From positions 1-47,166 of IMG/VR virus record IMGVR_UViG_3300048592_001406: DNA of 47,166 nucleotides; one strand, given 5' to 3'. Source of the DNA: a virus. This document shows, piece after piece, positions 8,286 through 29,292 of this stretch (its first letter is position 1; each line of letters begins with the position of its first letter). Made by a program: the position numbers and the translations under genes. The notes below the pieces were generated by a model. It saw only the letters and a list, made by a program, of their open reading frames with translations, was not told where the DNA came from and made no database searches.

Positions 8286-11200
8286 TTTTTTTTTAAGAGC
8301 GTATCGAGGCGGCGGCCCACGTGGTCGTGCAAATCCCGGCTGGCGGCATTGGCCGCGGCGAGCACTTCGTTGCGATCCGCCAGGCTGTCACCCCCGATGG
8401 AGAATTGCGTCGGTTTATCCGGTTCAGCTTGATTTTCGTTGACCGAGGTGGATTGGCCGGCGATAATTGGAGTAGAAGACTCGTCTGCTGGACCCGTTTG
8501 TCCCTTCGGGGATGCCGACCGGCTTAAGGACGGGTCTTCTTTTTTTGCCGTGATGTGCTGATCATAGAACCAGTTGCCGTTGTTGTCCTCGCGTACCTTG
8601 ATCCGCGATAGTGAGGCAACGCCGGCCAACCGGACATCCGCTTCAAAGTAGTGGTACATCCGCACGTTTTGCTCATCGCCAGCAGGTAGCTGAGACGAGT
8701 CGTACCGAGCCGACGCGATAATCTCGGGCAGTTTGGCCAGGGCTTTAACGGGCGCTTTGTCGGGCAGGTGACTGACCGCTTTCTTTAGCGACTTGCCGGA
8801 AACCTTGATCACCTTTCCTGTGTGTTGGTTGACGAACTCCTTGCCCTGCAGTTGAGTCTTAAAGAACTCCTTCGCATTGGCCAACATTTCGGGATCGGTT
8901 TCACCGAATTCCGTTCCGGTCACCTCGATGAACTTGCCCTCATCATCGCGCGGATGTTTTTCCGGATCGAAATCGACGGAAAAGGGCAGCGGATCGAACT
9001 CCGCCAGCACGTCGTCATCAACACGGTTGGCCAGCACGTAGCCGGCGGCCTCGTCGATCAACTCGGGGTCATGTTTGGCCGGCGGCTCGAGCCGGCCCTC
9101 CTTGAGCAGTTCCCACACCTTGGCCGCATAATCGGTACGGTCGTGATTGGCGCCGCTTTCATAGCCGCGGCCCAAGCCCAGCTCGGGGTACGCTCCGGCG
9201 ACTTCGCGGGCCGTGGCATCGAGCCCCGGCCACGTCGAATAATCCTTGCCGGCATCCTCCCACTTGTTAATCCGGTCGCGAGTCAGGCCGGTGAGATCGC
9301 GCGCCTGCTTCTTGGCATGTTCCCGCTCCAAGATGGCGTCGCGTTTCTCCTTCCAGACGAAATCGACCGCATCCGCCAGGTCGCTTGGATCGACGCCATG
9401 CTTTGCGGCGGCGTCGGTGATGGCGCTGCCAACTCTCGACTGTTGATTGAGCTGGCGCTTCTTCGGTTCCCATTCCGACGGGTCGAAGCTGGTCAGCTCC
9501 TTTTCGCGCTTCTTCTTCAGCGCGGAAAAGTGCCGCTTGAGTTGGCCGAGCTTCTTGCCCACCAGCGATTGCAGGCCGCCGCTTTTGAGGATCGTGCCAT
9601 CGGCGGAGATCTGGACCGGGAAGCCGCCCACGTGCTTTTTGCCGCCCTGCTCGCGGCCACCAATCGTGATCCAGCGGCCTTCGGCGGTTGCGGTGGAGAA
9701 CTGCAGGGCGCCGGCTTGCTCTGCCATGGGCAAGCTGCTGTCGCCGCGATCGAGCCAGCTTTTGAACTGCGCCATGGTCAGCGGCGTGATGATTCCCAGG
9801 CCTCGCCAGCCGGGCGAGTAATTCGACAGATAGCCTTGTCGGGCCGATTCCTGATCGGTCCAGCCGATCATGACTTTGTGCTCATCGAACGTGCCGGTAT
9901 CGCCACGGACCTGGTCGACCACAAACACCAGTTCGCTTTCCGGGTTCGGTCCAAGGAACACGTCGATGTGATCGCCGTCGGCCTCGCTCTGGGTCCGCTT
10001 GATGTAGCCGTAGTGATTCGCCAGAGGCGGCCACTGGGGGCGGCGCGAGGCGCCCTTGGGCGTCTCAATCGAGATGGGCAGGCCCTGCACCGTCACATGA
10101 GCGTGCCGATAGTTGCCGGCCAGCTGTTGGGCCGCGGACGGATCGGTGTCGACTTCGCGCGCCGCCGCATCGATGGTGTCGCCGAGGGAGTACTGCTGCG
10201 GCTGCTGACTGGGGTGCGGTGGCCGCGGTCCCCCAAGTTGCAGCGGCTGGCGCCCTGGCAATTGACCGGGCTGTTGCGGCTGCGCCTGACTTTGGGCGTT
10301 GGGCTGCCCCATGTCGCCCATCTGCTTGCCCACGGTTTCCAATAGCGGCCGGGGCTTGATCTGGTACCGCTGCGCCGCTTTCACGCCGTAATTCACGGCC
10401 GTCATCGGCCGGAGTTGCTGGCGATCGACCTGGCGGACAATCCCGCCCATTTCCTCGTCGCGGGTCGCCAGAAACGCCATGAAGGGGAACGAACGGCCGG
10501 AGAAGCCGCTGCCGGTTTCCGCCGCTTCCACCACTTCCCGCGGCACCAGCAGCCCGTCGAAAATGTCCCAATCGAGATCGCGGATCCAATCCTGAATTTG
10601 CGCGGTCTCAGCGATCGCCGCGGGCGGCACGTATTCGAACAGCAGATTGCCCTTGTCGTCGCGGTCGCTGGGCAAGGCGACGACGGCGCCGGAATAACGG
10701 CTCTCGCCCACTTCGCGGGCATAGTCTCGGGCCGAAATGACCGTGCCGTCCGGCTTGGTGAGCTTGCGGAACATCGGATAGCGGACCACGTCGCCAATCC
10801 AGGCGTCTTTCACGTTCCGCAGCCGGCGCAAGTCATACGCGCCGTTGTCCATGGCCTTGTCGTACCACGGCCCATAGGCATGCTCCAACAGCGGATCGCC
10901 GAACCGGCTGCCATGCTGCGCACGGTAAGTGAGCCACAGGCCTTGCGGTCCGACGAGGTACGCCTTGCCGCGGCCTTGCTGGGCCACGCCGTTGAGGTGA
11001 TTGACCGACACGCCGATCATCTGCGAGCCCTTCAACAGCGGCCGCGTGTCGACTGGGTGACGGTCCAGCAACTCGTCGAACACGATGCGGCCGCTGGTGT
11101 CGTCCAGCTTGTGCATCACCTCGTAGCCCGAGAAGCCGTAGCACTTCGCCTTGAGGAGTTTGCTGGCCGAAGTACTCCAGATCTTTTCCCACTGCTCTTG

Positions 11201-11449
11201 GACGAACCGGCAGACGGTGGGATCGGGGCCGGTGACTTCGACCTCGGCCGACATCAGCGGCGCGTTGCCGACGCAATAACCAAAATAGACCTGATTGTCG
11301 TACATCATCAGGTCCGCCCACGTGAGCGAAAACGGCGGCCGCTTCGCCAGAATGGAGGCGGTTATCGTTTTGGGCACGTTGACGTAATCGACGGTCAACG
11401 GCTCCTGGCGGAGCATTTTCCGTTTGAGCCAGTCCACTACGCCGGGCAT
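8267..11449 (-). CDS. Portal polyprotein: DUF935-type portal + InPase-like + polyvalent domains
   Basis: A 1060-residue protein (0-frame product). Residues ~1-385 match the Mu gp29/DUF935 portal type, which forms the dodecameric DNA channel of the head. A Gln/Pro-rich linker (~385-417) follows. Residues ~445-575 resemble the inorganic-pyrophosphatase-like domain of phage polyvalent proteins (HVTVQGLPISIETPKG, HYGYIKR, DHIDVFLGP, FDEHKVMIGW). Residues ~575-820 are helical and unassigned, and ~865-970 resemble an LPD3/barnase-EndoU-type polyvalent domain. The motif QYS/QFS/PFS/QFS lies at residues 419, 583, 822 and 1015, between these units. The ATG at 11449 has GGAG seven nt upstream; it overlaps the preceding gene by 13 nt. 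The C terminus carries the slip site leading to the gpF-like protein. Confidence 0.85.
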   Translation of the reverse strand: MPGVVDWLKRKMLRQEPLTVDYVNVPKTITASILAKRPPFSLTWADLMMYDNQVYFGYCVGNAPLMSAEVEVTGPDPTVCRFVQEQWEKIWSTSASKLLKAKCYGFSGYEVMHKLDDTSGRIVFDELLDRHPVDTRPLLKGSQMIGVSVNHLNGVAQQGRGKAYLVGPQGLWLTYRAQHGSRFGDPLLEHAYGPWYDKAMDNGAYDLRRLRNVKDAWIGDVVRYPMFRKLTKPDGTVISARDYAREVGESRYSGAVVALPSDRDDKGNLLFEYVPPAAIAETAQIQDWIRDLDWDIFDGLLVPREVVEAAETGSGFSGRSFPFMAFLATRDEEMGGIVRQVDRQQLRPMTAVNYGVKAAQRYQIKPRPLLETVGKQMGDMGQPNAQSQAQPQQPGQLPGRQPLQLGGPRPPHPSQQPQQYSLGDTIDAAAREVDTDPSAAQQLAGNYRHAHVTVQGLPISIETPKGASRRPQWPPLANHYGYIKRTQSEADGDHIDVFLGPNPESELVFVVDQVRGDTGTFDEHKVMIGWTDQESARQGYLSNYSPGWRGLGIITPLTMAQFKSWLDRGDSSLPMAEQAGALQFSTATAEGRWITIGGREQGGKKHVGGFPVQISADGTILKSGGLQSLVGKKLGQLKRHFSALKKKREKELTSFDPSEWEPKKRQLNQQSRVGSAITDAAAKHGVDPSDLADAVDFVWKEKRDAILEREHAKKQARDLTGLTRDRINKWEDAGKDYSTWPGLDATAREVAGAYPELGLGRGYESGANHDRTDYAAKVWELLKEGRLEPPAKHDPELIDEAAGYVLANRVDDDVLAEFDPLPFSVDFDPEKHPRDDEGKFIEVTGTEFGETDPEMLANAKEFFKTQLQGKEFVNQHTGKVIKVSGKSLKKAVSHLPDKAPVKALAKLPEIIASARYDSSQLPAGDEQNVRMYHYFEADVRLAGVASLSRIKVREDNNGNWFYDQHITAKKEDPSLSRSASPKGQTGPADESSTPIIAGQSTSVNENQAEPDKPTQFSIGGDSLADRNEVLAAANAASRDLHDHVGRRLDTLLKKKSPSKS
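8285..8291 (-). promoter_or_regulatory. Putative -1 ribosomal frameshift site, A AAA AAG
   Basis: The minus strand reads TTA AAA AAA AAG TCC in the portal frame, a run of nine A. The heptamer A AAA AAG is the classic bacterial -1 slip sequence (dnaX type). After slipping, GTC CCC ATC CAA continues open into the gpF-like gene; without slipping, the portal frame stops six codons later at 8267. No strong upstream Shine-Dalgarno-like stimulator is evident. Confidence 0.6.
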
Positions 11450-11688
11450 GAGGTGTCTCCGTTCCAGCCGCATTTCACGCACGGCAGCAGATTGAGTTTG
11501 ACTCCGCAATTGAGGCAGCGAATGCCCTCCACGCGCGTCGGCTCCGGTTGCTTGCCCGTGCACTGGCCGCGGGCAATGCGGTTGACGGTTTCGTGGTTCA
11601 CGCCGCACAGCCGCGCGATGGCGCGGCGGGATAACCGGCCAAAGGCGAGCAGTTCTTTGATGCGGGTGACCATCAGGACGGTGATCAT
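11437..11688 (-). CDS. Small HTH plus zinc-ribbon protein
   Basis: An 83-residue predicted DNA-binding protein. Residues ~8-42 form a resolvase-like helix-turn-helix (ELLAFGRLSRRAIARLCGVN, then HETVNRIARG). The C-terminal third has two CxxC pairs (CLNCG and CVKCG), forming a zinc ribbon. Similar small HTH/ribbon proteins are, from memory, widespread in planctomycetes. The ATG at 11688 overlaps the previous stop (ATGA), and its own stop overlaps the portal start, so it is translated with the structural genes. A regulator embedded in a virion operon is unusual. It might tune portal/late expression or act at DNA ends, but no target can be inferred from this sequence. Confidence 0.75.
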   Translation of the reverse strand: MITVLMVTRIKELLAFGRLSRRAIARLCGVNHETVNRIARGQCTGKQPEPTRVEGIRCLNCGVKLNLLPCVKCGWNGDTSCPA

Positions 11689-11972
11689 GTCTCTAGCTCC
11701 GTGGGCTCGTCGGCGCGGAACACGTGCACGTTGAGCCGGTCCAACTCTCGGCGGTGCGCTTCTTGCTCGCGTGTGAGGGCGGCAATCTTCTTGTCGTGTC
11801 GGCCGATCAGCTGCAACATCCTCCCCAGCTTGCGATCCATCGAACCCATCAGGCCGGTCATCTGGCACCACTGCCGATAGCTCATCGACAGCCAGCGCAT
11901 GAACCCGCCGCCCATGGCCAGCACGATGGCCGTTGTGACGCCGGCAGCAATTTCCCACCAGAAGATTGACAT
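11685..11972 (-). CDS. Small single-TM coiled-coil protein, holin/spanin-like
   Basis: A 95-residue protein with one N-terminal TM segment (about residues 5-27, EIAAGVTTAIVLAMGGG) and a charged helical C-terminal half likely to form a coiled coil (RKLGRMLQLIGRHDKKIAAL). The size and topology fit a class III-like holin or a lysis accessory protein. A structural membrane-anchored role is equally possible. It has AAGGA close to the ATG, follows the 59-residue gene by 16 nt, and is coupled to the HTH protein by ATGA. The nearby papain-like peptidase and nuclease genes support a lysis or entry block, but that is inference. Confidence 0.55.
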   Translation of the reverse strand: MSIFWWEIAAGVTTAIVLAMGGGFMRWLSMSYRQWCQMTGLMGSMDRKLGRMLQLIGRHDKKIAALTREQEAHRRELDRLNVHVFRADEPTELET

Positions 11973-11988
11973 TCCTTGTGCCCTGCCC

Positions 11989-12168
11989 TTAGTCGTCCAA
12001 TTCTTCGATCGTGAGCCTCACGCGCTCGTATCGCACCTGGTTTTGGCCGCTCGTCAGTTTCTCGGCCAGCAAGATGCACAAGTCTCGCGGGTCAATCCGC
12101 AAGCCTCGCCCGTGATCGATTGTCAAATCCGTCACGATGACTGCGCCGTTGCCGGTGTTAGTGACCAT
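11989..12168 (-). CDS. Small hypothetical protein (59 aa)
   Basis: A 59-residue protein beginning MVTNTGNGAVIVTDLTIDHG and ending ERVRLTIEELDD. It is beta/alpha mixed, mildly acidic, without Cys or TM. It is the first gene after the terminator at 12197-12238 and lies 16 nt before the TM/coiled-coil gene, so it probably opens the portal-containing transcription unit. The ribosome site is weak (GGGTCCGG). Coding character is supported by its fit between neighbours and the lack of another frame. Function unknown. Confidence 0.55.
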   Translation of the reverse strand: MVTNTGNGAVIVTDLTIDHGRGLRIDPRDLCILLAEKLTSGQNQVRYERVRLTIEELDD

Positions 12169-12196
12169 CGCGCCGGACCCTCGTGTCAGCCTTCGG

Positions 12197-12238
12197 AAAA
12201 AAGTACAGCCGGCCGCCCCGGAAATGGGGCTGGCCGGC
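12197..12238 (-). terminator. Strong intrinsic terminator after the nuclease gene
   Basis: The stem GCCGGCC-GCCCC (12208-12219) pairs with GGGGC-t-GGCCGGC (12226-12238) across a GGAAAT loop, 12 bp with one bulge. On the minus strand it is followed five nt later by TTTTTT (12202-12197). It ends the unit containing the nuclease and separates it from the portal unit. Confidence 0.85.
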
Positions 12239-12270
12239 GTCCTAGAGGATCTATCTGGCCGGTAATTGCC

Positions 12271-12918
12271 TCACTGCTGTGATCCGGCCCCGCTTTTTCT
12301 CCACTGCCATGGCGGAATCGGTTCGCGATCCGCCCACAAGCCGAGGCGGTTTTCTTTCGCCCTGTCCTGGTCCGCCCGGTAAGTCAGATCGCTGGAGTAA
12401 TCGGAGTACCAATGGCAATAGCCCTCGCGGACCAGACCGCGGTTGAGGCTGCCATACTCGGGCAAGAGAATCTCGCCGATCATGCGGCCGTAACGGTCGG
12501 GCTGTTCGCCGAGCACAGTCACCTGCTTGTTGAGCGCATGCTCTTTGGCTTTGGCGGTGGCTTCCGGCCCGTATGGCTGATCGTTCTCCGGCGCATCCAC
12601 ATGCTTCAGCCGTACGGTGACGAGCACTTTGCAGGTATCGGCGTCCAGAAATTGTGTCACCTTGCCGTGGATCTTCAGCGGCAGCTGCGAGCACTCGCAG
12701 GCCGCGCCGCATGGGCAGACCTTTGGCTTGGCGGCCTGGTGGAGAATCGAACGCGGTTGCTGCATGGGGATAGGCGTCAGCTCGCTGGCCTCGATCGAGC
12801 AACAGCAGCTCGCCGGCTCCGGCTGCCATGACGCCGCGGGTGGCATGAGGTGCCGTTGAATGAGCACGCCGATCACTATTCCCGGCAGCAGCGTAGGCAA
12901 GAATTTCAAGCGTTCCAT
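12271..12918 (-). CDS. Membrane-anchored staphylococcal-nuclease-like (thermonuclease) protein
   Basis: A 215-residue protein with an N-terminal TM or signal-anchor (residues ~7-22) followed by Cys-rich linkers (SCCC at 38-40; CPCGAACEC at 68-76). An SNase/TNase domain spans residues ~82-205. Matching catalytic positions are visible: Arg103 (VRLKHVDAPE), Glu119 (YGPEA) and Arg142/Arg145 (DRYGRMIGEI). The enzyme class cleaves DNA or RNA phosphodiesters with calcium. The anchor suggests action outside the cytoplasmic membrane. The ATG at 12918 has GGAAGG upstream. It is the last gene before a strong terminator. It could degrade host or competitor DNA at lysis, or be cargo; it is not a standard virion gene. 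Confidence 0.8.
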   Translation of the reverse strand: MERLKFLPTLLPGIVIGVLIQRHLMPPAASWQPEPASCCCSIEASELTPIPMQQPRSILHQAAKPKVCPCGAACECSQLPLKIHGKVTQFLDADTCKVLVTVRLKHVDAPENDQPYGPEATAKAKEHALNKQVTVLGEQPDRYGRMIGEILLPEYGSLNRGLVREGYCHWYSDYSSDLTYRADQDRAKENRLGLWADREPIPPWQWRKSGAGSQQ

Positions 12919-12991
12919 CTGTTACACCTTCCTGAATCGCGTTTTCCAGAGTCACCACACACAACACTTCATCCGCCGATCAAGATGCCGC

Positions 12992-13954
12992 TTAAATCGT
13001 CGGCTGCGGGATGCTGCCCACGCTCTGTGATCCGCTCGACGCGCCGCCGCTTCCCGTCGCAGCGAGCCCCGCGGATCCGCTGGGCGACGTATCGCCCGGC
13101 TGGCCGATCGTCCCGCCGGCAGCGGCCTTGTGCATCTCCACGCCCACCGCAGCCGCCGCCGGAGTGAGTCCCTCTCCCGACAGGCCGGCACTGCCGGGCA
13201 GCGGTCCGACCGGGTATTGCTTGAGGTTCGGCGTGATAAGGTTGGCCGGAATGCCGTTGAGGAACGGCCGCAAGTCATCCTCCGTCAACGTCGAAAAGAT
13301 CTGGCCGGGTGAATCGAGCGCCTCGATATTGAGGGTCACCATCTCCGGCTTGTAGGCGCGGTAATGCTCCTCGGTGAAGACGAACGTATCCTCGGGAGCC
13401 CGCACCGTGGCGGCAGGAATGGCCAACAACTCAATGGCCACCAGGTTGCGTATCTCGCGGAAATAGGCCCAGATCTGCTGTGCGAACAGGTTGGTGACCG
13501 TCAGCGCGAGGTTGTTATCCGAGTGCTGCATCATGTTGCACAGGGCAATCATGGTCAGCCGGTTATATTCCTTCAGCCAGCGGTTGCGGACGATCGTGCC
13601 CTCAAAATAAGGGACGGGGTGAATGTTCCACGGCTCGGGATGGGCCGACGAGTGGCCCTCTTCCAAGCGCCGCTCGTTGGATTCCTTCATCCGATTGACG
13701 AGGATCGACTGCACGCGATTGCAGACCTTGCCCAGCCGCTCGACGGTGTTGATCGACGGGGCTTGCTTGCGCTGCGCGTCGATGTGGGTCATGATGTAGA
13801 GCTGCGCCTGGCCGATCTCATCCACCAGGCCCCAGATGGCTTGGTTCTTGGTGCCGATGTTGTCGCCGAAGTTAGGCACGCCGAAGCCAAACTTGTTCCA
13901 CGGGTCCACGTCGTACAGCAGCGTGCGGTCGCTGCCAAACAGGGTCGATCCCAT
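12992..13954 (-). CDS. Hypothetical virion protein (320 aa)
   Basis: A 320-residue protein without TM or signal. Residues ~20-240 are mainly helical with conserved-looking segments (TVTNLFAQQIWAYFREIRNL, LVNRMKESNERR). The C-terminal ~60 residues are Gly/Ser/Ala/Pro low complexity. It lies between the collagen-like metalloprotease and the nuclease, in the tail-distal part of the virion operon. The ATG at 13954 is chosen because GGAG lies ten nt upstream; the TTG three codons earlier is too close to that site. Function unknown. The flexible C-terminal tail would suit a capsid- or tail-surface component. Confidence 0.55.
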   Translation of the reverse strand: MGSTLFGSDRTLLYDVDPWNKFGFGVPNFGDNIGTKNQAIWGLVDEIGQAQLYIMTHIDAQRKQAPSINTVERLGKVCNRVQSILVNRMKESNERRLEEGHSSAHPEPWNIHPVPYFEGTIVRNRWLKEYNRLTMIALCNMMQHSDNNLALTVTNLFAQQIWAYFREIRNLVAIELLAIPAATVRAPEDTFVFTEEHYRAYKPEMVTLNIEALDSPGQIFSTLTEDDLRPFLNGIPANLITPNLKQYPVGPLPGSAGLSGEGLTPAAAAVGVEMHKAAAGGTIGQPGDTSPSGSAGLAATGSGGASSGSQSVGSIPQPTI

Positions 13955-13969
13955 AACTGGCAATCTCCT

Positions 13970-15646
13970 TTAGCTGTGCTTCTCGTCGCTCCAGCCCATG
14001 CCAAAGCGTTTCTTGGCTTGCTGGCCGTGCAGAAGCTGTTTCTTGGTTTCCTCGATCCGGTTGGCATAGGCCTCCAAATCGGGGCACAATCCCACCTCGC
14101 GCCGGATCGCTTCCCGGTAGGCTTCTCCCTCCGGGTCCACTTCCGGCACGCGGACATACCGCGTCTCTGTCTTTTCCATCGGGGCCACAATGACGCTGGG
14201 CTCGGTGTGCAGCGGTACCGCCGCACACGGTCCTTCGTGCCCCGCGCCGCGAGTGCACACCCATCCCCCCGGCGGGCGACTGCATGGAAAGGGCGATTGC
14301 GGAGCAGGTGGCGCCACGTTGGCGCTGGCCGGCGGATGTTTGGGGATCTCCGGCACTTGGCGTCGATACCAGCGATCCCGGATCTCCTGGCCCAGTTCCT
14401 CGGGCAACGTCGGCAGGCCACGCTTGCGGAGTCGCCGCTTGACCAGTCGATACAGCAGCCATAGCCCGATCGATTGCGGCATACTCAATCCGAGCGCGGC
14501 GGCCGCGCCGGGTAGCAGGCGGTCCCGCAGTGAAAGCCCCTCTCCGTCGGCCCCATTCTTTCCAGGCTTGCCCGGCGGACCTGGCAGACCATTGACGCCT
14601 GGCTGGCCCTCCTTGCCGTCGACGCCGTTCTTTCCGTCTTTCCCTGGCAGGCCGTCCAAGGGCCGAGGCAGGTTCTCGACTGTCTTCTCCAGCTTGTCGA
14701 TCCGCTTGGTGAGCGGCGTTAGATCGACAGAGGTTTGCTTGACCGCCGCGGGGGGCTGCGCGTTGATGCGCGGCGCCGGCTGGGCCGTCACAGCGGCGGC
14801 CGGCGATGACTGGCGTTGTTGAAAGGGAGTCGGCAACCATTGGCGGAGCGGTGCGCCAGTCGGGCACACAAAACCGCCGCGGGCCGGATCGAACACGCAG
14901 CCCTCCCGCGCCACGATATGCTGCTCGCAGCGCGGGCAGCCGGCCTCCACCCATGCGAGCCAGCGAGCTTGCAGCTCGCCGAGGTCCAGGCCGTAGACCT
15001 CTTTGAACGCAGCACGTTGATCCGTGGCGCTGGCCCGCTCGAGGAATACCACCAGCGACCGCTTACCCTGGAGCTGGGCGAGAAAATCGCACACGCTAAA
15101 GCCCTGCGCGTAAAGCGCCATCACCTTGCCGGTGTCCTGCGGGTATTGGCGGATTTCGACCAGCTCTGGCAGGTTATAGAGCAGCCCGCGGGCAGAGCAT
15201 TGAAACAGAATCTGCCGCTGTCGATCCTGCTCGCTGGCCGCTTCGGTCATCACGCAAATGCCTTCGTCGATCCAGCGCGGCGACGGCTGCCGCAGGTGAG
15301 TCGCCATCACGGTATGCATGACCTCATGCGGCACTACGGCATCGATCAACCGCGCCGCCGGACCCTGGACACTCGACTCCCAACCGTAGACTTCGCCACG
15401 GTCGAACATCATGCTCGTCGCGCCGCCGCCGCTGGTATTGTCCTCCTTGACCGTGAAGGTGAGCGGACAGGGTGAATACCAGCGTGGATGCTTGTAGCCG
15501 AGCCACTCCTCCGACAACTCGGCGCGCGATCGCTCCGCGGTTTCGGCAATGGTTTGCTCCAGGTTCGCGGCATTGCCGGAGACGACGAAGTTTTCCGTCT
15601 TGACCGTTCCGAGCAGTAGGACAATCAATAGTGCGTTCATGGTCAT
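13970..15646 (-). CDS. Exported HExxH metalloprotease with collagen-like repeat
   Basis: A 558-residue multi-domain protein. A signal peptide (MTMNALLIVLLLG) leads into a gluzincin/peptidase-MA-like domain with HEVMH and a downstream WIDEG that would supply the third zinc ligand (~residues 105-130). CxxC appears at ~240 (CPRCEQH). At about residues 335-380 is a collagen-like Gly-x-y run (GLPGPPGKPGKNG and neighbours, ~13 triplets). A short hydrophobic stretch (SIGLWLLYRLVKRRLRKRG) then suggests a second membrane contact, followed by a helical basic C terminus. The start at 15646 overlaps the previous stop (ATGA). It probably acts on the cell surface or as a tail adhesin. Collagen-like segments occur in phage fibres. 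Confidence 0.75.
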   Translation of the reverse strand: MTMNALLIVLLLGTVKTENFVVSGNAANLEQTIAETAERSRAELSEEWLGYKHPRWYSPCPLTFTVKEDNTSGGGATSMMFDRGEVYGWESSVQGPAARLIDAVVPHEVMHTVMATHLRQPSPRWIDEGICVMTEAASEQDRQRQILFQCSARGLLYNLPELVEIRQYPQDTGKVMALYAQGFSVCDFLAQLQGKRSLVVFLERASATDQRAAFKEVYGLDLGELQARWLAWVEAGCPRCEQHIVAREGCVFDPARGGFVCPTGAPLRQWLPTPFQQRQSSPAAAVTAQPAPRINAQPPAAVKQTSVDLTPLTKRIDKLEKTVENLPRPLDGLPGKDGKNGVDGKEGQPGVNGLPGPPGKPGKNGADGEGLSLRDRLLPGAAAALGLSMPQSIGLWLLYRLVKRRLRKRGLPTLPEELGQEIRDRWYRRQVPEIPKHPPASANVAPPAPQSPFPCSRPPGGWVCTRGAGHEGPCAAVPLHTEPSVIVAPMEKTETRYVRVPEVDPEGEAYREAIRREVGLCPDLEAYANRIEETKKQLLHGQQAKKRFGMGWSDEKHS

Positions 15647-16227
15647 GGGCAGAGAGTGAATCTCGGCTCCCACAGGATCGACTTGGCTAGATCGCCCGGT
15701 TCGGTGATCCGGTCCGAGGCGTTTTGCACGGGATCGATGCCGCCGCCCAGACGGCAGGCGTTGGCCACGGCTTCGGAGCAGTATTCCGGGGCCGAGTGGG
15801 GACCGCCGTCGTCTGTGAAGTCTGGCTGGTAGGCGAGCCGGACAATGGGCAGGTGAGCCAGCGAGGCGTTGACAATGCCAGCGTAGGAGTACTGGCGTCC
15901 GGCTTTCGACAGCATGACCCGAATTGCGCTTTTGCGGTCGAACTTATCCTCCCACTCCGGTCGGATCGTGTACACGTCAATCCGGTTGGGGAATCGCTGG
16001 ACCTGGCTTTCCAGGGTCACCACACGACCGCCGCGAAATTCTCGCAGTTCCATGCACACCGGAGTCAAGTCCCACCATGCCAACAATGCAGCATGGGAGT
16101 ACTCCGTGCGACCCGCGGTCCGGATCAGCTTGGAACTGACGCCCCACGAACGGAACAACAACAGGCTCGCATTGCCTGCCGACCAGGGGTAAAGATCGTG
16201 AAGCTTGACGGTGCATGTCGCTGCCAT
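15643..16227 (-). CDS. YiiX/NlpC-P60-like papain-fold peptidase
   Basis: A 194-residue protein with the permuted papain-like pattern of the YiiX/DUF830 type. The candidate catalytic His45 lies in EYSHAALL, the nucleophile Cys150 in PEYCSEAVANAC. The SYAGIVNASLAHLP helix between them is typical. Family members hydrolyse amide or ester bonds, often in peptidoglycan. Here it may be the endolysin or a virion-associated wall hydrolase. It starts a transcription unit just after the terminator at 16256-16309 and is coupled (ATGA) to the metalloprotease gene. No signal peptide is visible, so release would need a holin. The enzyme family is fairly clear, the substrate is not. Confidence 0.7.
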   Translation of the reverse strand: MAATCTVKLHDLYPWSAGNASLLLFRSWGVSSKLIRTAGRTEYSHAALLAWWDLTPVCMELREFRGGRVVTLESQVQRFPNRIDVYTIRPEWEDKFDRKSAIRVMLSKAGRQYSYAGIVNASLAHLPIVRLAYQPDFTDDGGPHSAPEYCSEAVANACRLGGGIDPVQNASDRITEPGDLAKSILWEPRFTLCP

Positions 16228-16255
16228 AGCGCTGCCGACTTTGTTGCCCTGCTAA

Positions 16256-16309
16256 CAAAAAAAGGCGGCCACTCGGGATCGCACAAGCAATCCAAAGCAG
16301 CCGCCTTTT
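16256..16309 (-). terminator. Intrinsic terminator after the small tail gene
   Basis: AAAAGGCGGC (16260-16269) pairs with GCCGCCTTTT (16300-16309), with an inner GGAT/ATCC stem in the 30-nt loop. The minus strand continues with a T-rich run (TTTTTTTTGTT). It separates the tail genes from the peptidase unit. Confidence 0.75.
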
Positions 16310-16362
16310 GAGAGCGTCTGAGCCCAACAATGGGCATTTGTCCGGGTTGTCAGCACTTGAGA

Positions 16363-16527: not shown

Positions 16528-16595
16528 GGCTTCCAAGCCCCCTTTGCTGTCTTAGCCGGTGCTTCCTTCCTGCCTACCGTAGGCCGTCACCGCGC

Positions 16596-17257: not shown

Positions 17258-17260
17258 GAT

Positions 17261-20701: not shown

Positions 20702-20717
20702 GCATCACGCTCCGCGC

Positions 20718-21224
20718 TTAAGGCTGGGTGATAGAAAACAGCCGGATCGTGCCGCTGGAGTCGTACGGCAGCAGTTCGAAGATCACGGGGATATCCCGCT
20801 CGTCTGGCCCGAACAGCAGATTGATGTCATTTTCCGGAGCAATCTTCGCCAGATTGGCCGTGAACAACGTCGGGCCGGCTGTGGCGGCTGGAGTGCCGGC
20901 CGTCGGTGTCAAGGTGATGACCTTGGCGACGTCGCTGGCCAGACGGCCAATCACGCCCAGCGTGCCATCGAAAGTGCCGCTGGCCGACCAGGGCCAGATG
21001 GCCGCGCGGACTGCCGGCTTCCATTCCTTGAAGGTGACGGCCAGCAGCGCGTTGACCCCGCGGTAAATGCCGTCGATCTTGGTGTCGCCAAACCGATTGG
21101 TGTCCTGAATCGCCTTTTCCTTGAAGCGCCAACGGAGGTTTTGGCCGCCACTCGTCACAAGCCCCACGGCAACGCTGTCGTAGGTCATGACGTATTCGCC
21201 GGGCGCGAAGATGCCGAGTCCCAT
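20718..21224 (-). CDS. Major tail tube protein candidate
   Basis: A 168-residue beta-rich protein with the features of tail tube proteins: an N-terminal MGLGIFAPGEYVMTYDSVAV, the segment RFGDTKIDGIYRGVNALLAV, and a flexible Thr/Ala loop near 110. Tail tube proteins polymerise into the hollow tail through which DNA passes. The ATG at 21224 follows AAAGGA. It comes after the tail-terminator-like protein and before the tape-measure candidate, the usual order. No sheath-like gene accompanies it, so a long non-contractile tail is likely. Confidence 0.7.
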   Translation of the reverse strand: MGLGIFAPGEYVMTYDSVAVGLVTSGGQNLRWRFKEKAIQDTNRFGDTKIDGIYRGVNALLAVTFKEWKPAVRAAIWPWSASGTFDGTLGVIGRLASDVAKVITLTPTAGTPAATAGPTLFTANLAKIAPENDINLLFGPDERDIPVIFELLPYDSSGTIRLFSITQP

Positions 21225-21239
21225 TGAGGATTCCTTTCG

Positions 21240-21800
21240 TTAGGTTGCCACGTCCATCGCTTGCACTCGGGTACCGCCGCGGAATGGCAGCACGCGGACA
21301 AGGAATTGATCCGTCGCCTTTTCGCTGAAAACCCACTCCGGCCCCTTGGGCATCGATCGAGCGCGCCCGAGAAACCACAGCGGATGTTGAAAAATGTCGC
21401 CGTTGCCGGCCGACGGAACGCCGGCCAAGGTGCACGCGGCCGCTCGGACAGCATGGCTGTTATGGATCGTCGTCTTGATCGTGCTTTCCAGCGGATCGAG
21501 TCCGTTGATCGCTTGCAGATAAGCCGAGTTCTGGCGGTCCTGCGCGAACTTGCCCATCCGCTTCGTGATAAACACGTCGATCGAGAACACTTCGCGGAGG
21601 AAAGCATGCTCGGTGCTTTCGACCTTGCTTTCGTCGATCGACACGTACCAGTCAGCGAACGTGGCCGGCGGATGACCGCCGGGATGGACGCCGACATAGT
21701 TCCGAGCCTGCGCGCTAACCTCGCCTGGAATGTGGGGGACCAGCGCAGTTCGCAGGGCGTCCTGCACCGCTTCCAGCAGTGCGCCAATGCCAATGCTCAT
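21240..21800 (-). CDS. Head-tail joining / tail terminator-like protein
   Basis: A 186-residue protein starting MSIGIGALLEAVQDALRTAL. It shows an alpha-helical N terminus, a central beta region (YVSIDESKVES, REVFSIDVFITKR) and a C-terminal strand pair (FLVRVLPFRGGTR). Size, layout and place between the gpG-like protein and the tail tube fit a tail terminator or neck protein. The start at 21800 overlaps the previous stop (ATGA); the longer frame to 21878 is an overlap artefact. Family identity is not certain. Confidence 0.6.
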   Translation of the reverse strand: MSIGIGALLEAVQDALRTALVPHIPGEVSAQARNYVGVHPGGHPPATFADWYVSIDESKVESTEHAFLREVFSIDVFITKRMGKFAQDRQNSAYLQAINGLDPLESTIKTTIHNSHAVRAAACTLAGVPSAGNGDIFQHPLWFLGRARSMPKGPEWVFSEKATDQFLVRVLPFRGGTRVQAMDVAT

Positions 21801-22582
21801 CGAGCGCGCCCTCCCAGCAGCAGACGAATCGCCTGCTCGATGCCGGAGGTCGAGGCGGAGGCCAGGAAGTGCCACCAACTCGACGGGATCTGACTTGGCT
21901 CCGGCACGATCTGCCGCCGGCGCTTTTCGCTTTTGGCGTGCTGATGATAGCCGGCGTAGGCCACCGAGCTGCCGACGATTACTTCGCCCGGGTTATGCTC
22001 GACGATCTGACCATCCGGGCCGATGTAGTGGGCATCGGCGCCAGCCTCGGTCAGCGCGCCGGGTGACAGCGAGTTGAGCAGTATGTCCCGGTCCCGGAGG
22101 ATTTCATGCTCCCGGCTGCCAAACACATCGAGCTTGGTCCGCACGCCGCGGGCCTTGGCGCGGCTCCAGGCCCAGGCCGCCGCGCGGCGCTTGGTTTCCT
22201 CGCTGAGCCCTTCGTCGGCCGCCATCCAGGTTAAGGCGCCGGCATAGTCCCGCTTCCATTGAGCCAACTCGCCCGGGCTCATGAAGCCATCTTTGCCACC
22301 TGGCGACAGACCGCCGGCCGTGCGATCGCTCTTGGGGCCGCGCTGATAGGCGAGATAACGCTTCGTGAGCGGCGGCCAGGAAATGCCGCACTCGTCGGTA
22401 CCCCCGCGTGCCTTGACGATGTACGCGAGCTTCACCTTCGAGAGCAGCGCATACGCCAGGCGCATGGCGAAACCGTGAGCGATACCGCCCTCGTCGGGCT
22501 GGCCTCCGCTTAAGATCGACACCAGACGCCGCAACTCGGATTTGAGCTGCTGGCGGGTTGCTCTCACGTAGATCGTAGTCAC
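21797..22582 (-). CDS. Mu gpG-like virion morphogenesis / tail completion protein
   Basis: A 261-residue protein with the pattern of phage virion morphogenesis and tail-completion proteins: LRDRDILLNSLSPG near residue 160, followed by VGSSVAYAGYHQHAK and RRQIVPEPSQIPSSWWHFLA. In such proteins the Tyr-x-x-xHxx-G and Pro/Arg-rich segments mark the domain that sits at the head-tail junction. The start codon is GTG at 22582 with no obvious ribosome site. It lies 12 nt after the 129-residue protein and is coupled to the next gene. Mu gpG acts in tail termination or head completion. This is a family-level call. Confidence 0.75.
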   Translation of the reverse strand: MTTIYVRATRQQLKSELRRLVSILSGGQPDEGGIAHGFAMRLAYALLSKVKLAYIVKARGGTDECGISWPPLTKRYLAYQRGPKSDRTAGGLSPGGKDGFMSPGELAQWKRDYAGALTWMAADEGLSEETKRRAAAWAWSRAKARGVRTKLDVFGSREHEILRDRDILLNSLSPGALTEAGADAHYIGPDGQIVEHNPGEVIVGSSVAYAGYHQHAKSEKRRRQIVPEPSQIPSSWWHFLASASTSGIEQAIRLLLGGRAR

Positions 22583-22594
22583 GTTATGACGCGC

Positions 22595-22984
22595 TTAGAC
22601 GTTGGGGTTGTTACTCAAGCCCTTGATCTTGATCGTGCCGGCGCTGCCGCTGGCGTTGGTGGCGAAAAAGCTGGTCACATCCGTCGCCAGCGCGAAAGCA
22701 TCTGCCAGCGAGTCGTGCCACACGTAGGGCTCGCCGGCAGCCAGCGCGATCGTGTCGGCCGGGGCGCTGCCATCGTTGGTTTCCAGCGTCATGGCCACGT
22801 CGGCAATCGCCGCGAAGAACGTGCAAGCGGAGACATCGAGGCTGCCGCCCAGATCGAGATCCGTGGTGGCGTCCGGCACATCGCGGTCGATCAGCAGCAG
22901 ATTCGTGCCGCTCTTGCTGACCTCGCTCTGATCGGTCTCGCCGCCGACGGTGAATACCTGCTTGTAGTTGGCTGTGTAGGACAT
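22595..22984 (-). CDS. Small beta-rich virion protein (129 aa)
   Basis: A 129-residue protein rich in Thr, Ala and Asp, predicted mostly beta (YKQVFTVGGETDQSEVSKSG, GSAGTIKIKGLSNNPNV). The ATG at 22984 has GGAG six nt upstream. It starts 3 nt after the 104-residue gene and lies in the connector region. It may be a capsid-decoration or neck-fibre protein. I do not recognise the family. Confidence 0.6.
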   Translation of the reverse strand: MSYTANYKQVFTVGGETDQSEVSKSGTNLLLIDRDVPDATTDLDLGGSLDVSACTFFAAIADVAMTLETNDGSAPADTIALAAGEPYVWHDSLADAFALATDVTSFFATNASGSAGTIKIKGLSNNPNV

Positions 22985-22987
22985 GCT

Positions 22988-23302
22988 TTACTCCGCGGCC
23001 TGGGGCGTCGGCTCCGTGCCGTCGACGCGCGGGAGGGTGTTGAGATCCGCCAACATCGAGGCATCGGCCACGTCGCCCGCGAAGGGCTCCAGGCCGTAGT
23101 GCCCGACATATAGGCCGGTCTGCACATCGAGGCTGCCCGCGAAGGTGAGGAAACGAACGGACCGCGGCGGGTGGACCTTGTCGCCCAACGTGAGCGGAGC
23201 GACGTTCACCTTGCCGCGGAGTGCCTTGTAGACCGCGATTTCAGCCTTGCTGATCATCGCGGGGAACATGATCGGAGCAGAGAACTTCTGTTTGGCTCTC
23301 AA
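22988..23302 (-). CDS. Small virion-operon protein, TTG start
   Basis: A 104-residue protein (RAKQKFSAPIMFPAMISKAE at the start) of unknown function. The start is a TTG whose bases overlap the previous TGA (TTGA), with GGAGG eight nt upstream, giving coupled translation. The basic N terminus and mixed beta content fit a small connector or neck component, but no family is recognised. The gene lies between the DUF1320 protein and the 129-residue protein. Confidence 0.6.
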   Translation of the reverse strand: MRAKQKFSAPIMFPAMISKAEIAVYKALRGKVNVAPLTLGDKVHPPRSVRFLTFAGSLDVQTGLYVGHYGLEPFAGDVADASMLADLNTLPRVDGTEPTPQAAE

Positions 23303-23823
23303 TTTTCAACCCTCCCTAAATCGTAAACGGGGTAATTGTTCAGACCGCCGGCGGGGTGCTGTCCTGACGAGGTGCTCGGCACGCGGCGGACCTTGTTTCG
23401 TCGGTAGCGGCCATCGACGATCATGTTGGAGACGGTCGGCGTGCTATCGACGCTCGGAAGTGCCAGGCCATCGTTGACGCTCAGATCGTCGTGCCCGTCG
23501 CGGATCCGCTTGAGATCATCGAGGTACGTTTTGACCTCGGCCGCCAACTCCTCGGGAACCGTCAGGCCGCGCCGGCGACACAGCCAGGCGGTGGCCAGAT
23601 GCGCGGTGCAGTACTTCACCCAATCGGACAGCAAGAGCTGGGACACGTCGTACCGCTGCAGCAGCCGCTGATTGACGTCGGCCGAGGCCTTAGCGATGCC
23701 CGCGGTCATCAGGCCGGCGTCCGCCGTGCCGTCCTGATCGTCGTCCAGGCGATCGAGCACGCCGAATTCGGAGAGCAAGGCCTCGACGTCCTCTTGGGTG
23801 CAGTAGGTTTGCAGCGTCGCCAC
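23299..23823 (-). CDS. Mu gp36-like (DUF1320) head-tail connector
   Basis: A 174-residue helical protein of the DUF1320/Mu gp36 type, which sits at the head-tail interface. The N-terminal QTYCTQEDVEALLSEFGVLD and the later YDVSQLLLSDWVKYCTAHLA match the expected pair of helical segments. The C-terminal tail is basic (RYRRNKVRRVP) and ends in a flexible Gly/Asn stretch. A GTG at 23823 is preceded by GGAG six nt upstream, better than the TTG codons further up. The gene begins just downstream of the terminator that follows the capsid gene, so it is expressed by read-through or from a weak promoter near there. Confidence 0.75.
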   Translation of the reverse strand: MATLQTYCTQEDVEALLSEFGVLDRLDDDQDGTADAGLMTAGIAKASADVNQRLLQRYDVSQLLLSDWVKYCTAHLATAWLCRRRGLTVPEELAAEVKTYLDDLKRIRDGHDDLSVNDGLALPSVDSTPTVSNMIVDGRYRRNKVRRVPSTSSGQHPAGGLNNYPVYDLGRVEN

Positions 23824-23835
23824 GCGTCTCTCCAA

Positions 23836-23873
23836 CAAAAACAGGCGGGCCGGGCCTAGAACCCGAGCCCGCC
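23836..23873 (-). terminator. Terminator/attenuator after the major capsid gene
   Basis: GGCGGGC (23844-23850) pairs with GCCCGCC (23867-23873), with an inner CGGG/CCCG stem and a 7-nt loop. The minus strand then reads TGTTTTTG. It lies between the capsid gene and the connector gene in one operon, so partial termination would lower connector output relative to capsid. Confidence 0.75.
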
Positions 23874-23922
23874 ATCACTGCCCCGCGTCGCCGCGAAGTT
23901 CCTGGGAAAACGGGGGGCTATC

Positions 23923-25017
23923 CTAGAACACCACCGTTCCGGTCTTGATGGCCTTCGGCACGAACAGGGCGGGAATGCCGTTGTGGATGCCCTTGAGCTC
24001 CACGCCGCTGGGATCGTCGACCGGCTTGGGCCAGAAGTAGCCTCCCTGGCGAAGCGCCTGCGGTCCGCCGGTGTATTCGGTGACCACTTCGGAGCCCTCG
24101 TAATAGGCCAGCCAGTCCGGGCCGGGATCGGGCAAGAACGTCGCTTGCGTGTCGGCAATCAGCTTCGTGGTGGTGTAGCTGCTGCCGACGTCGAGCACTT
24201 CGTTGATCACGTGCCACTTGAGCCACGGGATGCCCTTGAGCACGATCAGGAAGTCGGTCGTCCCTTCGATCTGGTCGAATCGCTCGAACACGGTGTTGGC
24301 CGTACCGGCCAGCGCCTTGACGGCCGTGTTATTGAGCACGTTGCTCATGCCGATGGAGTTGATCAGCACGTGCTGCAACGGCATGCCGTGATCGATTTCC
24401 ATCTGGGCGTTGATCTCGTCGATGTGCCCCGGAATGTCCGTAGCGGCGTTGTCCCAGCTGGCGGCGATGATGCCTCCCAGGTTGCCCAACGACGCCGCCG
24501 GAATTTGAAAGTTGATCGTCTGCGTGCCGCCGCTGAAATCGTGGAACAACAGGTCGCCGGAGCGGCTGTACGTGTAACTGCCGCGGAGCATGGCCGCCAC
24601 CTGGAACTCGCGCAGGTTCGTGAACCGCTGCTTCAGGGTCCGCTCCTGGCGGTTGATGTAGTTGATGCCGCGCCCGTCGAGCACGCCGACGGGTCCGCCG
24701 ATCGAGCGCAGGTTGTGCACCTTTTCATGCAAGATCAGCACGGTTTCGGCCGCGCGAGGAAACGCCCCGCGGACCTCGCCGACGGGGTTGGCTTCGATCC
24801 GCGCCGACGGCTGGCCTGGGTGGCGCGCCGTGGCGACCTTGCGGATATCGTCGTAGATATCCCAAAAGAAGTCGCGCCCGCCGAAGCCTTCGACGTTGGG
24901 GCCGCCCAGCCCCATGCCGAAGAAATTCTGCAAGCGCGTATTCCGCACCTTGAGGCGACTGATCGCCTTGTTGACTGCCTTCGGATTGAGAACATCACCG
25001 AGGGTGAGAGTTGCCAC
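23923..25017 (-). CDS. Major capsid protein (lambda gpE-like)
   Basis: A 364-residue HK97-fold major capsid protein of the lambda gpE type (length about that of gpE, 341). Recognisable parts are the N-terminal LQNFFGMGLGG, the DFFWDIYDDIRKVATARHPG region, the ERTLKQRFTNLREFQVAAML helix with RGSYTYS, and the C-terminal TTKLIADTQATFLPDPGPDW followed by YYEGSE. It assembles the icosahedral shell. The start is GTG at 25017 with GGAG ten nt upstream. It follows the decoration protein by a 127-nt gap with a hairpin and is followed by a terminator, an arrangement that fits high expression. Confidence 0.9.
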   Translation of the reverse strand: MATLTLGDVLNPKAVNKAISRLKVRNTRLQNFFGMGLGGPNVEGFGGRDFFWDIYDDIRKVATARHPGQPSARIEANPVGEVRGAFPRAAETVLILHEKVHNLRSIGGPVGVLDGRGINYINRQERTLKQRFTNLREFQVAAMLRGSYTYSRSGDLLFHDFSGGTQTINFQIPAASLGNLGGIIAASWDNAATDIPGHIDEINAQMEIDHGMPLQHVLINSIGMSNVLNNTAVKALAGTANTVFERFDQIEGTTDFLIVLKGIPWLKWHVINEVLDVGSSYTTTKLIADTQATFLPDPGPDWLAYYEGSEVVTEYTGGPQALRQGGYFWPKPVDDPSGVELKGIHNGIPALFVPKAIKTGTVVF

Positions 25018-25073
25018 TTGTGTTTTTCTCCGGCCGTCCGCCTGGCTGAAATCCGCATGGTTTGCAGCAGCTT

Positions 25074-25094
25074 GCCCGGCTGCGGTCGCCGGGC
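25074..25094 (-). other. Hairpin in the leader of the capsid gene
   Basis: A perfect 7-bp stem, GCCCGGC/GCCGGGC, with a GACCGCA loop lies 57 nt before the capsid start. No T run follows, so it is probably not a terminator. It may stabilise the capsid message or mark a processing site. Confidence 0.4.
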
Positions 25095-25144
25095 TTTCGG
25101 GTCGCGTTCCCTAGCTGCCTTGGTCCCTTCCGTGGTCAACCTCT

Positions 25145-25927
25145 CTAGGCGACCGTTGCCGTGGTCCCGCCGAGATTCAGCACGAGCCACTTGAGCGTAC
25201 CGGCTGCGGTGTACACGGCGGTGGCGATCGCACAACTGCCGATCTTCTGGCCGGCCGTGTTGAACGTGACGGAGTCGGCGGCGGCATCTCCCTTGTGCAC
25301 GATGTCGTCCGCCGAGCCAGCCGACAAAATCGCCATATCGGCGTCTGCCGTCTGCGCGAACATGAACGACAGGCCAACCGCCGGCGCCGGCAAGGTGAAG
25401 TTGGCCGCCGCCGTGGCCAGAAACAGCGTGCCGTTGTCGGCGGCCACAACGGTATAGTGGGTCGCCTTGGGCGCCACTTGCCGCGGCCGCAACAGGAAGC
25501 CGGCGGCGCACGGCACGTCATCGTCGAAGATGAAGCGGCCGGTGGCCGTCATCTGCGCCCGGGCCTGCGCGTCGACGTTCACCAGGCCTGCGGCGCGCAA
25601 TCGGCCGCCGACCAGGATGCTGGCAGTCCGGGCCACGGCGGTACCGGACGGATCGAGCATGTTGAGCCCCTCCAGCAACACGCCCTCGGCGAACTGAGTG
25701 CCGTCAGTGGCGTCGGGATCATAGGCGTAGTACAGCCCGTCCGAATCCTTCTTGCCCAGAATCAACCCGGCGCGGAGTTGCGTGGTGGGGGTGTTGCCGC
25801 TGTCGACGGCTGCCGAGCCGATGACAACGCCCTCTTCCACCATCTGCTCGCGGCGCCCCCACAGGATGTTTCGCTCCGCGGTTTCATTCGCGGCCGCGAT
25901 ACCGGGCTGAATGCCGTACAAACTCAT
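25145..25927 (-). CDS. Head decoration protein (gpD-like) with extra beta domain
   Basis: A 260-residue protein. Residues ~50-150 match lambda gpD-type decoration proteins (EGVLLEGLNMLD, SGTAVARTASILVGGRLRAA, DAQARAQMTATGRFIFDDDV). Residues ~160-255 add a second beta domain (TVVAADNGTLFLATAAANFT, LPAPAVGLSFMFAQ) like the fibre-head motif in the plus-strand protein at 28363-29289. Decoration proteins cap capsid trimers and stabilise the shell; the extra domain would be displayed on the outer surface. It precedes the capsid gene and follows the protease, the canonical order. Ordinary gpD is about 110 residues, so this one is more than doubled. Confidence 0.8.
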   Translation of the reverse strand: MSLYGIQPGIAAANETAERNILWGRREQMVEEGVVIGSAAVDSGNTPTTQLRAGLILGKKDSDGLYYAYDPDATDGTQFAEGVLLEGLNMLDPSGTAVARTASILVGGRLRAAGLVNVDAQARAQMTATGRFIFDDDVPCAAGFLLRPRQVAPKATHYTVVAADNGTLFLATAAANFTLPAPAVGLSFMFAQTADADMAILSAGSADDIVHKGDAAADSVTFNTAGQKIGSCAIATAVYTAAGTLKWLVLNLGGTTATVA

Positions 25928-25993
25928 ATTGGTGGCCCTCGTATTGTTGAAAGGCTGTCGTTGGTGAATCGTGACTCGGACGCCGCGCGCCCG

Positions 25994-27328
25994 TTAAACG
26001 CCGATCGGCTGATTGAACCTGGCGGTCTGGGCCTCCGCGATTTCGTCGGCCCTGGCGTCGTCGATATCTTCACCGGGCTTCTTCGGAGGCTGGAAAAACG
26101 CCTCGCCCTTGGGATGCTGATCCTCGGCAGTGCCAGGCAGGGCATCGAGCGAGAATTGCCGCGCCGGAAACATCGCGTCGTCCGGGAATGCCTCCTCAAA
26201 AATCTCCGCCAGGTCGGCGAGGTCGAACGTCTTGGCGAACTTCCCGTCGGCGGAAAACTGCATCGCCTTGCCAGACGTGAGCAGCTCGTAGGCGTGCGGC
26301 GTGATCGCGCGGCGGTTCACCAGGCCCTTGAGCTTGTCGGCGGCCAACTGTGCCTTGAGGGTCACCAGTTCCGCCACGGCGGCGGGCAGCTTCGCTACGT
26401 CATCCACGCTGAACAGCATGGCCGGCGGCGTCTCTTCGATCGCGCCCTTGAGGTCGCCGCCGTCTCGATCCTGCTTGGCGGCGGCCTGTTCGTCGGCCTT
26501 CTGCTTGGCAGCGCTGGCCGTCATCAAGGCCGTCAACAGCCGTTCGACGAGGTTCTCCATCGTCGTACCAGCCGGCAGGGCAAAGCCATGCTCGGTCAGA
26601 TGAGCCAACAGCGCCTCGAACTGCTGCATTTCCTGCAGGTTCGTCTGCGGCATGTCCGGGTTCTCCGGCTCGGCCGGCGGCTCCGGTTGCTTGGGCGGAT
26701 CCGCGTCTCCCTTGGACTCGACGGGAGTGTCATCGGTGTTCTTGCTGGCCGCGTCGTCGTCGCGCTCTTCATCGTCGAACGCCATATCGTCCTCCATGTC
26801 AGCAAGCGAAAACTGGACGGGACCGGCGAAAGAGCCCTCGCCCAGCTTGAGAATGTCTGACTGATTCGGGTTACGAGGGCGATGCGTCACAGCGACGTGC
26901 CCCAGAGTGAACGGATAGAGGCCGCCGACGCCGTCCTGCCACAGCGGTCGCAGTTCCGGCGAGGTGAATTTCAGGCTGCCGTTTGCGAACTGCTCGGCCG
27001 TCTGGGGGTCGGTGACCTCCAGCTCGTAGCCCAGCGCACCGTCGGCGTCCTGAAAGATGTCCGCCAGGTAGCCGCGGCTGTTTTCCAGCTCCAGCGCTTT
27101 TTTCTCGCGTTCGCTCAGCGTAGCGGTGAACACGGAGAATTGCCGCGGCTGCCCTTCGGAGCTGCCAGGCGCTGCATGCTCCAACAATAGCGGCGGCCGG
27201 TAGCCGGCGGCGATGAGTTTGCGCGTGCCTGCGACGTACAACCCCAGCTCTTCGCCGGTGAGTTGTTTCTGGACGCCCGAGAACTTGTATCGGGCTGGCT
27301 TCAAGGCCGTCTGACGGAATGCTGCCAT
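25994..27328 (-). CDS. Prohead protease/scaffold (Mu gpI-like)
   Basis: A 444-residue Mu gpI-like protein that combines a head-maturation protease (residues ~1-165) with a scaffold. The core segment SLKFTSPELRPLWQDGVGG and the following LYPFTLGHVAVTHRPRNP are typical; Ser123 and His144/His149 are candidate catalytic residues. After an acidic linker (~176-200) and a Pro-rich segment (~205-228), a helical scaffold follows (~230-390). The motif Q-F-S recurs at residues 63, 172, 357 and 391, and a related LFS at 305, placing several between blocks as expected for self-cleavage sites. It is the first gene of the head operon, upstream of decoration and capsid genes. Confidence 0.8.
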   Translation of the reverse strand: MAAFRQTALKPARYKFSGVQKQLTGEELGLYVAGTRKLIAAGYRPPLLLEHAAPGSSEGQPRQFSVFTATLSEREKKALELENSRGYLADIFQDADGALGYELEVTDPQTAEQFANGSLKFTSPELRPLWQDGVGGLYPFTLGHVAVTHRPRNPNQSDILKLGEGSFAGPVQFSLADMEDDMAFDDEERDDDAASKNTDDTPVESKGDADPPKQPEPPAEPENPDMPQTNLQEMQQFEALLAHLTEHGFALPAGTTMENLVERLLTALMTASAAKQKADEQAAAKQDRDGGDLKGAIEETPPAMLFSVDDVAKLPAAVAELVTLKAQLAADKLKGLVNRRAITPHAYELLTSGKAMQFSADGKFAKTFDLADLAEIFEEAFPDDAMFPARQFSLDALPGTAEDQHPKGEAFFQPPKKPGEDIDDARADEIAEAQTARFNQPIGV

Positions 27329-29289: not shown

Positions 29290-29292
29290 CCC

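Follow-up and report, generated by a model that had tools for sequence, protein, structure and literature searches.

Candidate head maturation protease sites shared by a phage protease/scaffold and its portal polyprotein, and a co-varying word in Mu-type phages

We analysed a 47-kb IMG/VR virus record (IMGVR_UViG_3300048592_001406; 47,166 nucleotides, the whole of which is called the window here), in which a portal polyprotein and a putative head maturation protease with a scaffold extension share short words of the form [QP][FY]S[LVAIT]. We consider it probable, at roughly 0.63, that these words are recognition sites of the protease and that the portal polyprotein is cut at them into portal, InPase, LPD3 and tail pieces. 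The motif was present and enriched in both proteins, it occupied a conserved place at the junction of protease core and scaffold, and in Mu-type phages the corresponding word co-varied between the protease and the portal of the same genome. An earlier note on this DNA had proposed a single cleavage rule by which the protease frees its scaffold and divides the portal. One motif family does link the protease/scaffold with the portal linkers and co-varies in Mu-type phages, whereas the copies inside the two cores are probably not sites and the cutting itself is a step that we infer.

Motif copies in the window

Portal motifs are numbered as in the earlier note, from Met54 (window 11449) and not from the GTG of the open reading frame (ORF); domain limits are in ORF residues.

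8267-11449, minus strand: portal polyprotein, 1060 residues from Met54 (GTG ORF 8267-11608), assigned from a tblastn match of its core to the Mbo2 portal and Pfam matches to InPase and LPD3
10187-10195, minus strand: QYS419, linker between portal core and InPase, candidate site; a cut here would leave a 47 kDa portal
9752-10132, minus strand: InPase domain PF18823, ORF residues 493-619 (Pfam E = 1.7e-43)
9695-9703, minus strand: QFS583, candidate site directly after InPase and before RWITIGG...GGKKHVGG
8978-8986, minus strand: PFS822, candidate site before DPEKHPRDDEGKF and LPD3
8564-8881, minus strand: LPD3 domain PF18798, ORF residues 910-1015 (Pfam E = 7.7e-22)
8399-8407, minus strand: QFS1015, candidate site before a 42-residue C-terminal piece
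25994-27328, minus strand: putative head maturation protease/scaffold (gpI-like), 444 residues, assigned from profile A4 (hhalign E = 3.2e-4) and gene order
27134-27142, minus strand: QFS63, within the protease core and ahead of the catalytic block, probably not a site; a poor model predicts a strand at QFS63
26960-26962, minus strand: candidate catalytic Ser123 (KFTSPEL), aligned with the Ser invariant across the protease family
26807-26815, minus strand: QFS172, core/scaffold junction, candidate autocleavage site, aligned with actinophage QFSI/NFSL/KFSM
26408-26416, minus strand: LFS305 in the scaffold, candidate site
26252-26260, minus strand: QFS357 in the scaffold, candidate site
26150-26158, minus strand: QFS391 in the scaffold, candidate site

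All the motifs that the earlier note had reported, in the portal (QYS419, QFS583, PFS822, QFS1015) and in the protease/scaffold (QFS63, QFS172, LFS305, QFS357, QFS391), were found in the sequence, along with two that it had overlooked, one within the portal core (PPFS at residue 39) and one in the protease (KFS15). Its remark that no QFS was noticed in capsid, tail or replication proteins also held, with zero copies in the remaining predicted proteins and the sole other copy upstream of the likely start of ORF 41034-42398. The looser [QP][FY]S occurred elsewhere in the window at QYS112 (ORF 15643-16227) and at PFS403 and QYS735 (ORF 43717-45954). The protease/scaffold contained four QFS against 0.06 expected from shuffled controls (p = 5e-5), and QFS was its most over-represented tripeptide (p = 0.0015, max statistic corrected over all tripeptides). 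The same word, defined from the protease alone, occurred twice in the portal tail against 0.08 expected (p = 0.003), and [QP][FY]S four times against 0.3 (p = 1.5e-4). Unrelated proteins did not carry the motif equally often: [QP][FY]S[LVAIT], a loose form chosen post hoc, fell eight times in the protease and portal tail and three times elsewhere (Fisher 2.8e-7). As for the proposed position at domain borders, the four tail motifs (ORF residues 472, 636, 875 and 1068) did lie outside InPase and LPD3, although such placement alone has a probability of about 0.2 by chance.

The A4 profile, built from actinophage and B3-type head maturation proteases, matched the window protease over a block containing the catalytic Ser, and the order protease, decoration, capsid E in the window is that of Gordonia and Tsukamurella phages. 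On the strength of the profile match and the shared gene order we therefore treat ORF 25994-27328, with moderate confidence, as a head maturation protease with a scaffold extension. When Mu-like and B3-type profiles were each compared with it by hhalign, neither reached significance (A1, 0.66; A2, 0.22, where the match covered the same block as with A4). A possible catalytic His in LLLEH was matched by eye only, and a forced alignment of the window protease to Mu-like gpI was poor and was rejected.

QFS172 is the best-supported site and most likely the autocleavage point, judging by its alignment with QFSI in the TIN2 and Hotorobo proteases, NFSL in Demosthenes and KFSM in Mbo2. The scaffold word at QFS357 (GKAMQFSAD) stood opposite GKVIPLSAE of Mu-like gpI in a weak hhalign match that was not significant. 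The copies within the cores, QFS63 and KFS15 of the protease and PPFS39 of the portal, are probably not sites. At residue 1015 the window portal has the same QFSIGG as the TIN2 and Mbo2 proteases (L203:5979-7187 and L103:6937-8118). The Demosthenes and Kampe proteases have Lys in place of the Ser (FKIGG/FKIAG), and this second protease position is thus not strictly conserved.

The portal core resembles the portals of Rhodococcus phage Mbo2 and of Gordonia phages (tblastn E = 2e-6, Mbo2), and the Portal_Mu profile (PF06074) gave no match to the window portal. With portal core, InPase and LPD3 in one virion-linked protein, the ORF combines several effector-type domains as polyvalent proteins do; no Pfam match to a zincin-like metallopeptidase, common in such proteins but not obligatory, was found within it. 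Cuts at the four tail words would give pieces of 47, 18, 26, 21 and 4.5 kDa, the first about the size of the Mu portal cut at AALSA (48 kDa). The gpF protein, which the earlier note named as following QFS1015, is a separate ORF. We also considered the last 42 residues as a Mu-type portal C-terminal domain and rejected this, as no profile supported it.

The word in Mu-type phages and in G026

Among Mu-like proteases, which were gathered without regard to the motif, the core/scaffold junction carried [FYL]S in most of those sampled, for example 'GAVDGLSFYSVD', 'GLRAFSVD' and 'GLELFSTD'. LSA and FSA were strongly enriched in Mu-like gpI, LSA occurring 76 times against 11 expected. In phage Mu itself, AALSA words occur in gpI, and the portal gp29 has KEAALSAED, with AALSA at 427-431 of 512, so that a cut there would take off about 9 kDa. 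The virion structure lacks the last 124 of the 512 gp29 residues, a loss that has been read as cleavage by protease I (PMC11915804), and AALSA lies within this missing segment. Further protease and portal pairs were VALSD and VGLSD in SuMu, EFAEG and TEFAEG in B3, IAALS/T and IAALAQ in JBD26, and RQLAG and RQMAS in a Rhodovulum phage. Across B3-type phages, F[ASG][EADS] reached 48 against 10 expected in the scaffold part and 12 against 4 in the portal tail, and was at expectation in the portal core, gpF and capsid.

We scored each phage by matching any 5-mer of the last 150 portal residues to three separate places in the scaffold. Over 28 phages, the tails exceeded shuffled tails (Fisher p = 5e-7), with 0.09, 0.57 and 0.18 for portal-core segments, and nine further B3-type phages gave 7e-4 for tails against 0.30 for cores. 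When own portals were compared with those of other phages in 37 Mu-type phages, tails gave z = 7.3 (p = 5e-5, the floor) and cores z = 1.7; after removal of relatives (27 left) the values were 5.7 and 1.9. In Mu-type phages, a short motif specific to the genome thus tends to recur in the protease/scaffold and in the C-terminal tail of the portal from the same phage.

The protease/scaffolds ranking first by [FY]S excess among 2156 ORFs were L088, L014 and L081. The second of these belongs to G026, a phage found among the InPase relatives and built on the same plan as the window: one ORF joins Portal_Mu with InPase, a second, large one carries LPD1, and a third resembles a protease/scaffold. This third ORF contains five YSR and one FSR against 0.08 expected, YSR being its top tripeptide (p = 5e-4), and further YSR copies occur at the capsid N-terminus (VISYSRNEK) and at the opening of the second ORF (PEKYSRWVTVGG). 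Two domain starts common to the window and G026, RW[IV]T[IV]GG...GGK.HVGG and ...HPR...G.F, are preceded by [FY]S: G026 has KYSRWVTVGG...GGKQHVGG at the border matching window QFS583 and SKYSQKEFDWNESEHPRNSLGEF at that matching PFS822. The G026 protease/scaffold (L106:16862-18502) and capsid N-terminus (L107:27-1070) also share ATFPGP.NVS.P.H, which lies beside KYSM in the former and upstream of SYSR in the latter. In the InPase relatives at large (L002-L055), [FY]S occurred close to InPase only sporadically.

Proposed cleavage and alternative explanations

If the words are sites of the phage's own head maturation protease, a self-cut at QFS172 would free the protease core from the scaffold, and the scaffold would be cut at about three more words (LFS305, QFS357, QFS391). 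Cuts in the portal linkers at 419, 583, 822 and 1015 would leave the 47 kDa portal core and set free, within the prohead, InPase (18 kDa), a middle piece (26 kDa), LPD3 (21 kDa) and a short tail. The bond could be that between F and S or, equally possibly, that after FSx. By analogy with the polyvalent-protein concept (PMC5512222), the released InPase and LPD3 may leave with the DNA on ejection. A general Mu-type site would comprise a large hydrophobic or aromatic residue, then S, A or G, then a residue typical of the phage (L-S-A in Mu, F-A-E in B3, L-S-D in SuMu, Y-S-R in G026), and would recur in two places, the scaffold and the linker that precedes the portal C-terminal domain. We give even odds to the broader view that such a co-evolving word (hydrophobic-[S/A/G]-x) is a cleavage word shared in Mu-type phages, some of which have made a polyprotein of the portal by placing effector domains such as InPase and LPD3 between cut sites, for release by the prohead protease within the head and ejection along with the DNA.

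Several observations weigh against this reading. Conservation in homologues, on which the earlier note had made its rule depend, was partial: the word is at the core/scaffold junction of actinophage proteases and co-varies in Mu-type phages, but the actinophage portals, the nearest to the window portal, lack it in their tails. The window protease had no family match in Pfam, PHROG or NCBIfam (PF10123, phrog_328 and phrog_976 included), its homology depends on one profile comparison (E = 3e-4) together with synteny, and a single-sequence AlphaFold2 model of its core was poor (predicted local distance difference test score, pLDDT, 39) and was not carried forward to a fold search. Enrichment in the window portal depends on four copies, one motif copy lies inside each of the protease core and portal core, and a generic 5-mer match of the window protease to its own portal tail was not significant, a test that is uninformative here because proline-rich linkers match best. 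The portal/InPase ORF of G026 has YSQ instead of YSR and shows no enrichment of [FY]S. About half of the Mu-type phages were not significant individually, and in the Mu-like IMG/VR set [LF]SA was enriched in portal cores as well, so the count of this class alone does not separate tail from core, although the matched own-portal test does. Close relatives of the window protease, capsid, terminase and portal core were sought among viral contigs, genomes and phages, and none was near enough; no relative was found having both the window-type protease and the window-type portal architecture.

The main rival is that the words are docking motifs, in which case scaffold and portal tail would carry one and the same peptide to bind either the capsid protein or the protease as the prohead assembles, and the cuts would fall elsewhere. 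Portals do interact with scaffolds, and docking would likewise yield a genome-specific word in both. However, the most constant position is the core/scaffold junction of the protease, a place that requires a cut, Mu virions lack the portal part that bears the copy, and the words in the window stand between foreign domains with no known scaffold role; we regard docking as unlikely.

Less probable again is that the protease cuts only itself and its scaffold, so that the portal polyprotein remains whole and its copies are fortuitous or serve a host protease. This would suit the actinophage relatives, which have QFS[IL] in the protease and none in the portal tail, and the fact that the window portal enrichment comes from four copies. 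It sits poorly with the shuffle results for that tail (p = 3e-3 to 1.5e-4), the own-portal matching in 37 phages and the Mu precedent.

The words might instead have no role in cleavage and reflect helix N-caps or a compositional habit of coiled-coil scaffolds (hydrophobic-Ser-x-x-Glu). LSAE and FSVDD do resemble N-cap boxes and are recurrent in helical scaffolds, and LSA is in excess in Mu-like gpI; some LSAE words could be explained in this way. B3-type FAE/FGE and G026 YSR are poor N-caps, though, and N-caps would neither make own portals match better than foreign ones nor put the word between domains of the portal polyprotein, which makes it distinctly improbable. Chance combined with post hoc choice is very improbable: although loose [QP][FY]S was picked after reading and per-phage p values were mostly modest, the max-statistic correction, the testing of a protease-defined QFS on the portal and the independent phage sets all tell against it.

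Known systems and neighbouring genes

A close known counterpart of the proposed cleavage at these words is phage Mu, in which the protease I/scaffold Z gene is a protease-scaffold fusion like that in the window and the portal gp29 is converted from H to H*. Loss of the portal C-terminus from Mu virions, ascribed to protease I (PMC11915804), is thus already known, and AALSA is common to both Mu proteins. Unlike the window, Mu has a single portal tail with no inserted effector domains, and the window portal is not Portal_Mu by sequence. Gordonia, Tsukamurella and Rhodococcus phages (Hotorobo, TIN2, Mbo2) are the nearest relatives of both portal and protease and share the gene order and QFS[IL] at the core/scaffold junction; unlike the window, they have portals of normal length without InPase or LPD3, with motif-free tails.

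Fusion of InPase and LPD domains to a phage structural protein is a feature that the window shares with the polyvalent proteins of Iyer et al. 2017 (PMC5512222), for which release of domains by proteolysis has been proposed, via built-in metallopeptidases or fused assemblin-like domains. In the window phage, by contrast, the release would fall to a separately encoded prohead protease whose sites match. Giant phage SPN3US, whose gp245 cuts after A-X-E, likewise applies one short rule to many head proteins, the portal and the ejected proteins among them, and has sites repeated in propeptides (PMC10052503). The likeness drawn is one of rule, and the third residue is E there as against L/V/A/I/T in the window. 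The window, with third residues L, V, A, I and T, does not obey the T4/phiKZ-type rule of cutting after x-x-E; B3-type F-A-E does fit it. In herpesvirus assemblin the protease is fused to the scaffold and the site is (V/L/I)-X-A, cut before S. This pattern of a hydrophobic residue, any residue and a small residue is near Mu L-S-A, by analogy only.

The open literature that was searched gave no cleavage rule for the family of Mu gpI; subscription journals lay largely outside it, so novelty is not proven. With a word that is shared and co-varies in Mu, B3 and dozens of related phages, precise sites become available for testing in laboratory phages, and the rule would allow the termini of virion proteins to be predicted from sequence. 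It would also offer phages without a built-in peptidase a route to deliver several effector domains from one head polyprotein.

Three other head genes of the window carry no motif.

7407-8186, minus strand: gpF-like minor head protein (PF04233), a separate ORF
25145-25927, minus strand: head decoration protein (PF02924; HDPD)
23923-25017, minus strand: major capsid protein, capsid E family (PF03864)

Portal and gpF (7407-11608) are distant from terminase, protease and capsid (23923-34216) and lie downstream of the tail genes, an unusual order. ORF 15643-16227, among the late genes, is a relative of papain-like C92 amidases (weak Pfam match) with its QYS word within the domain.

In L092 (an ORF of 957 residues) and L093 (706 residues), a Mu-like protease, scaffold and major capsid protein are naturally fused in one ORF, from which the capsid protein would need a cut for release. 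In Pseudomonas phage Komp_PAO1_1 (L191) the protease ORF lies at about 5046-6293 on the plus strand, where the record annotates only an antisense hypothetical coding sequence (5112-7241). A 35-kb record of Klebsiella phage KP12 clone KP12_2 (OM835952; L197), classed in Vequintavirinae, contains the head module of a Mu-like transposable phage and may be a prophage or contaminant.

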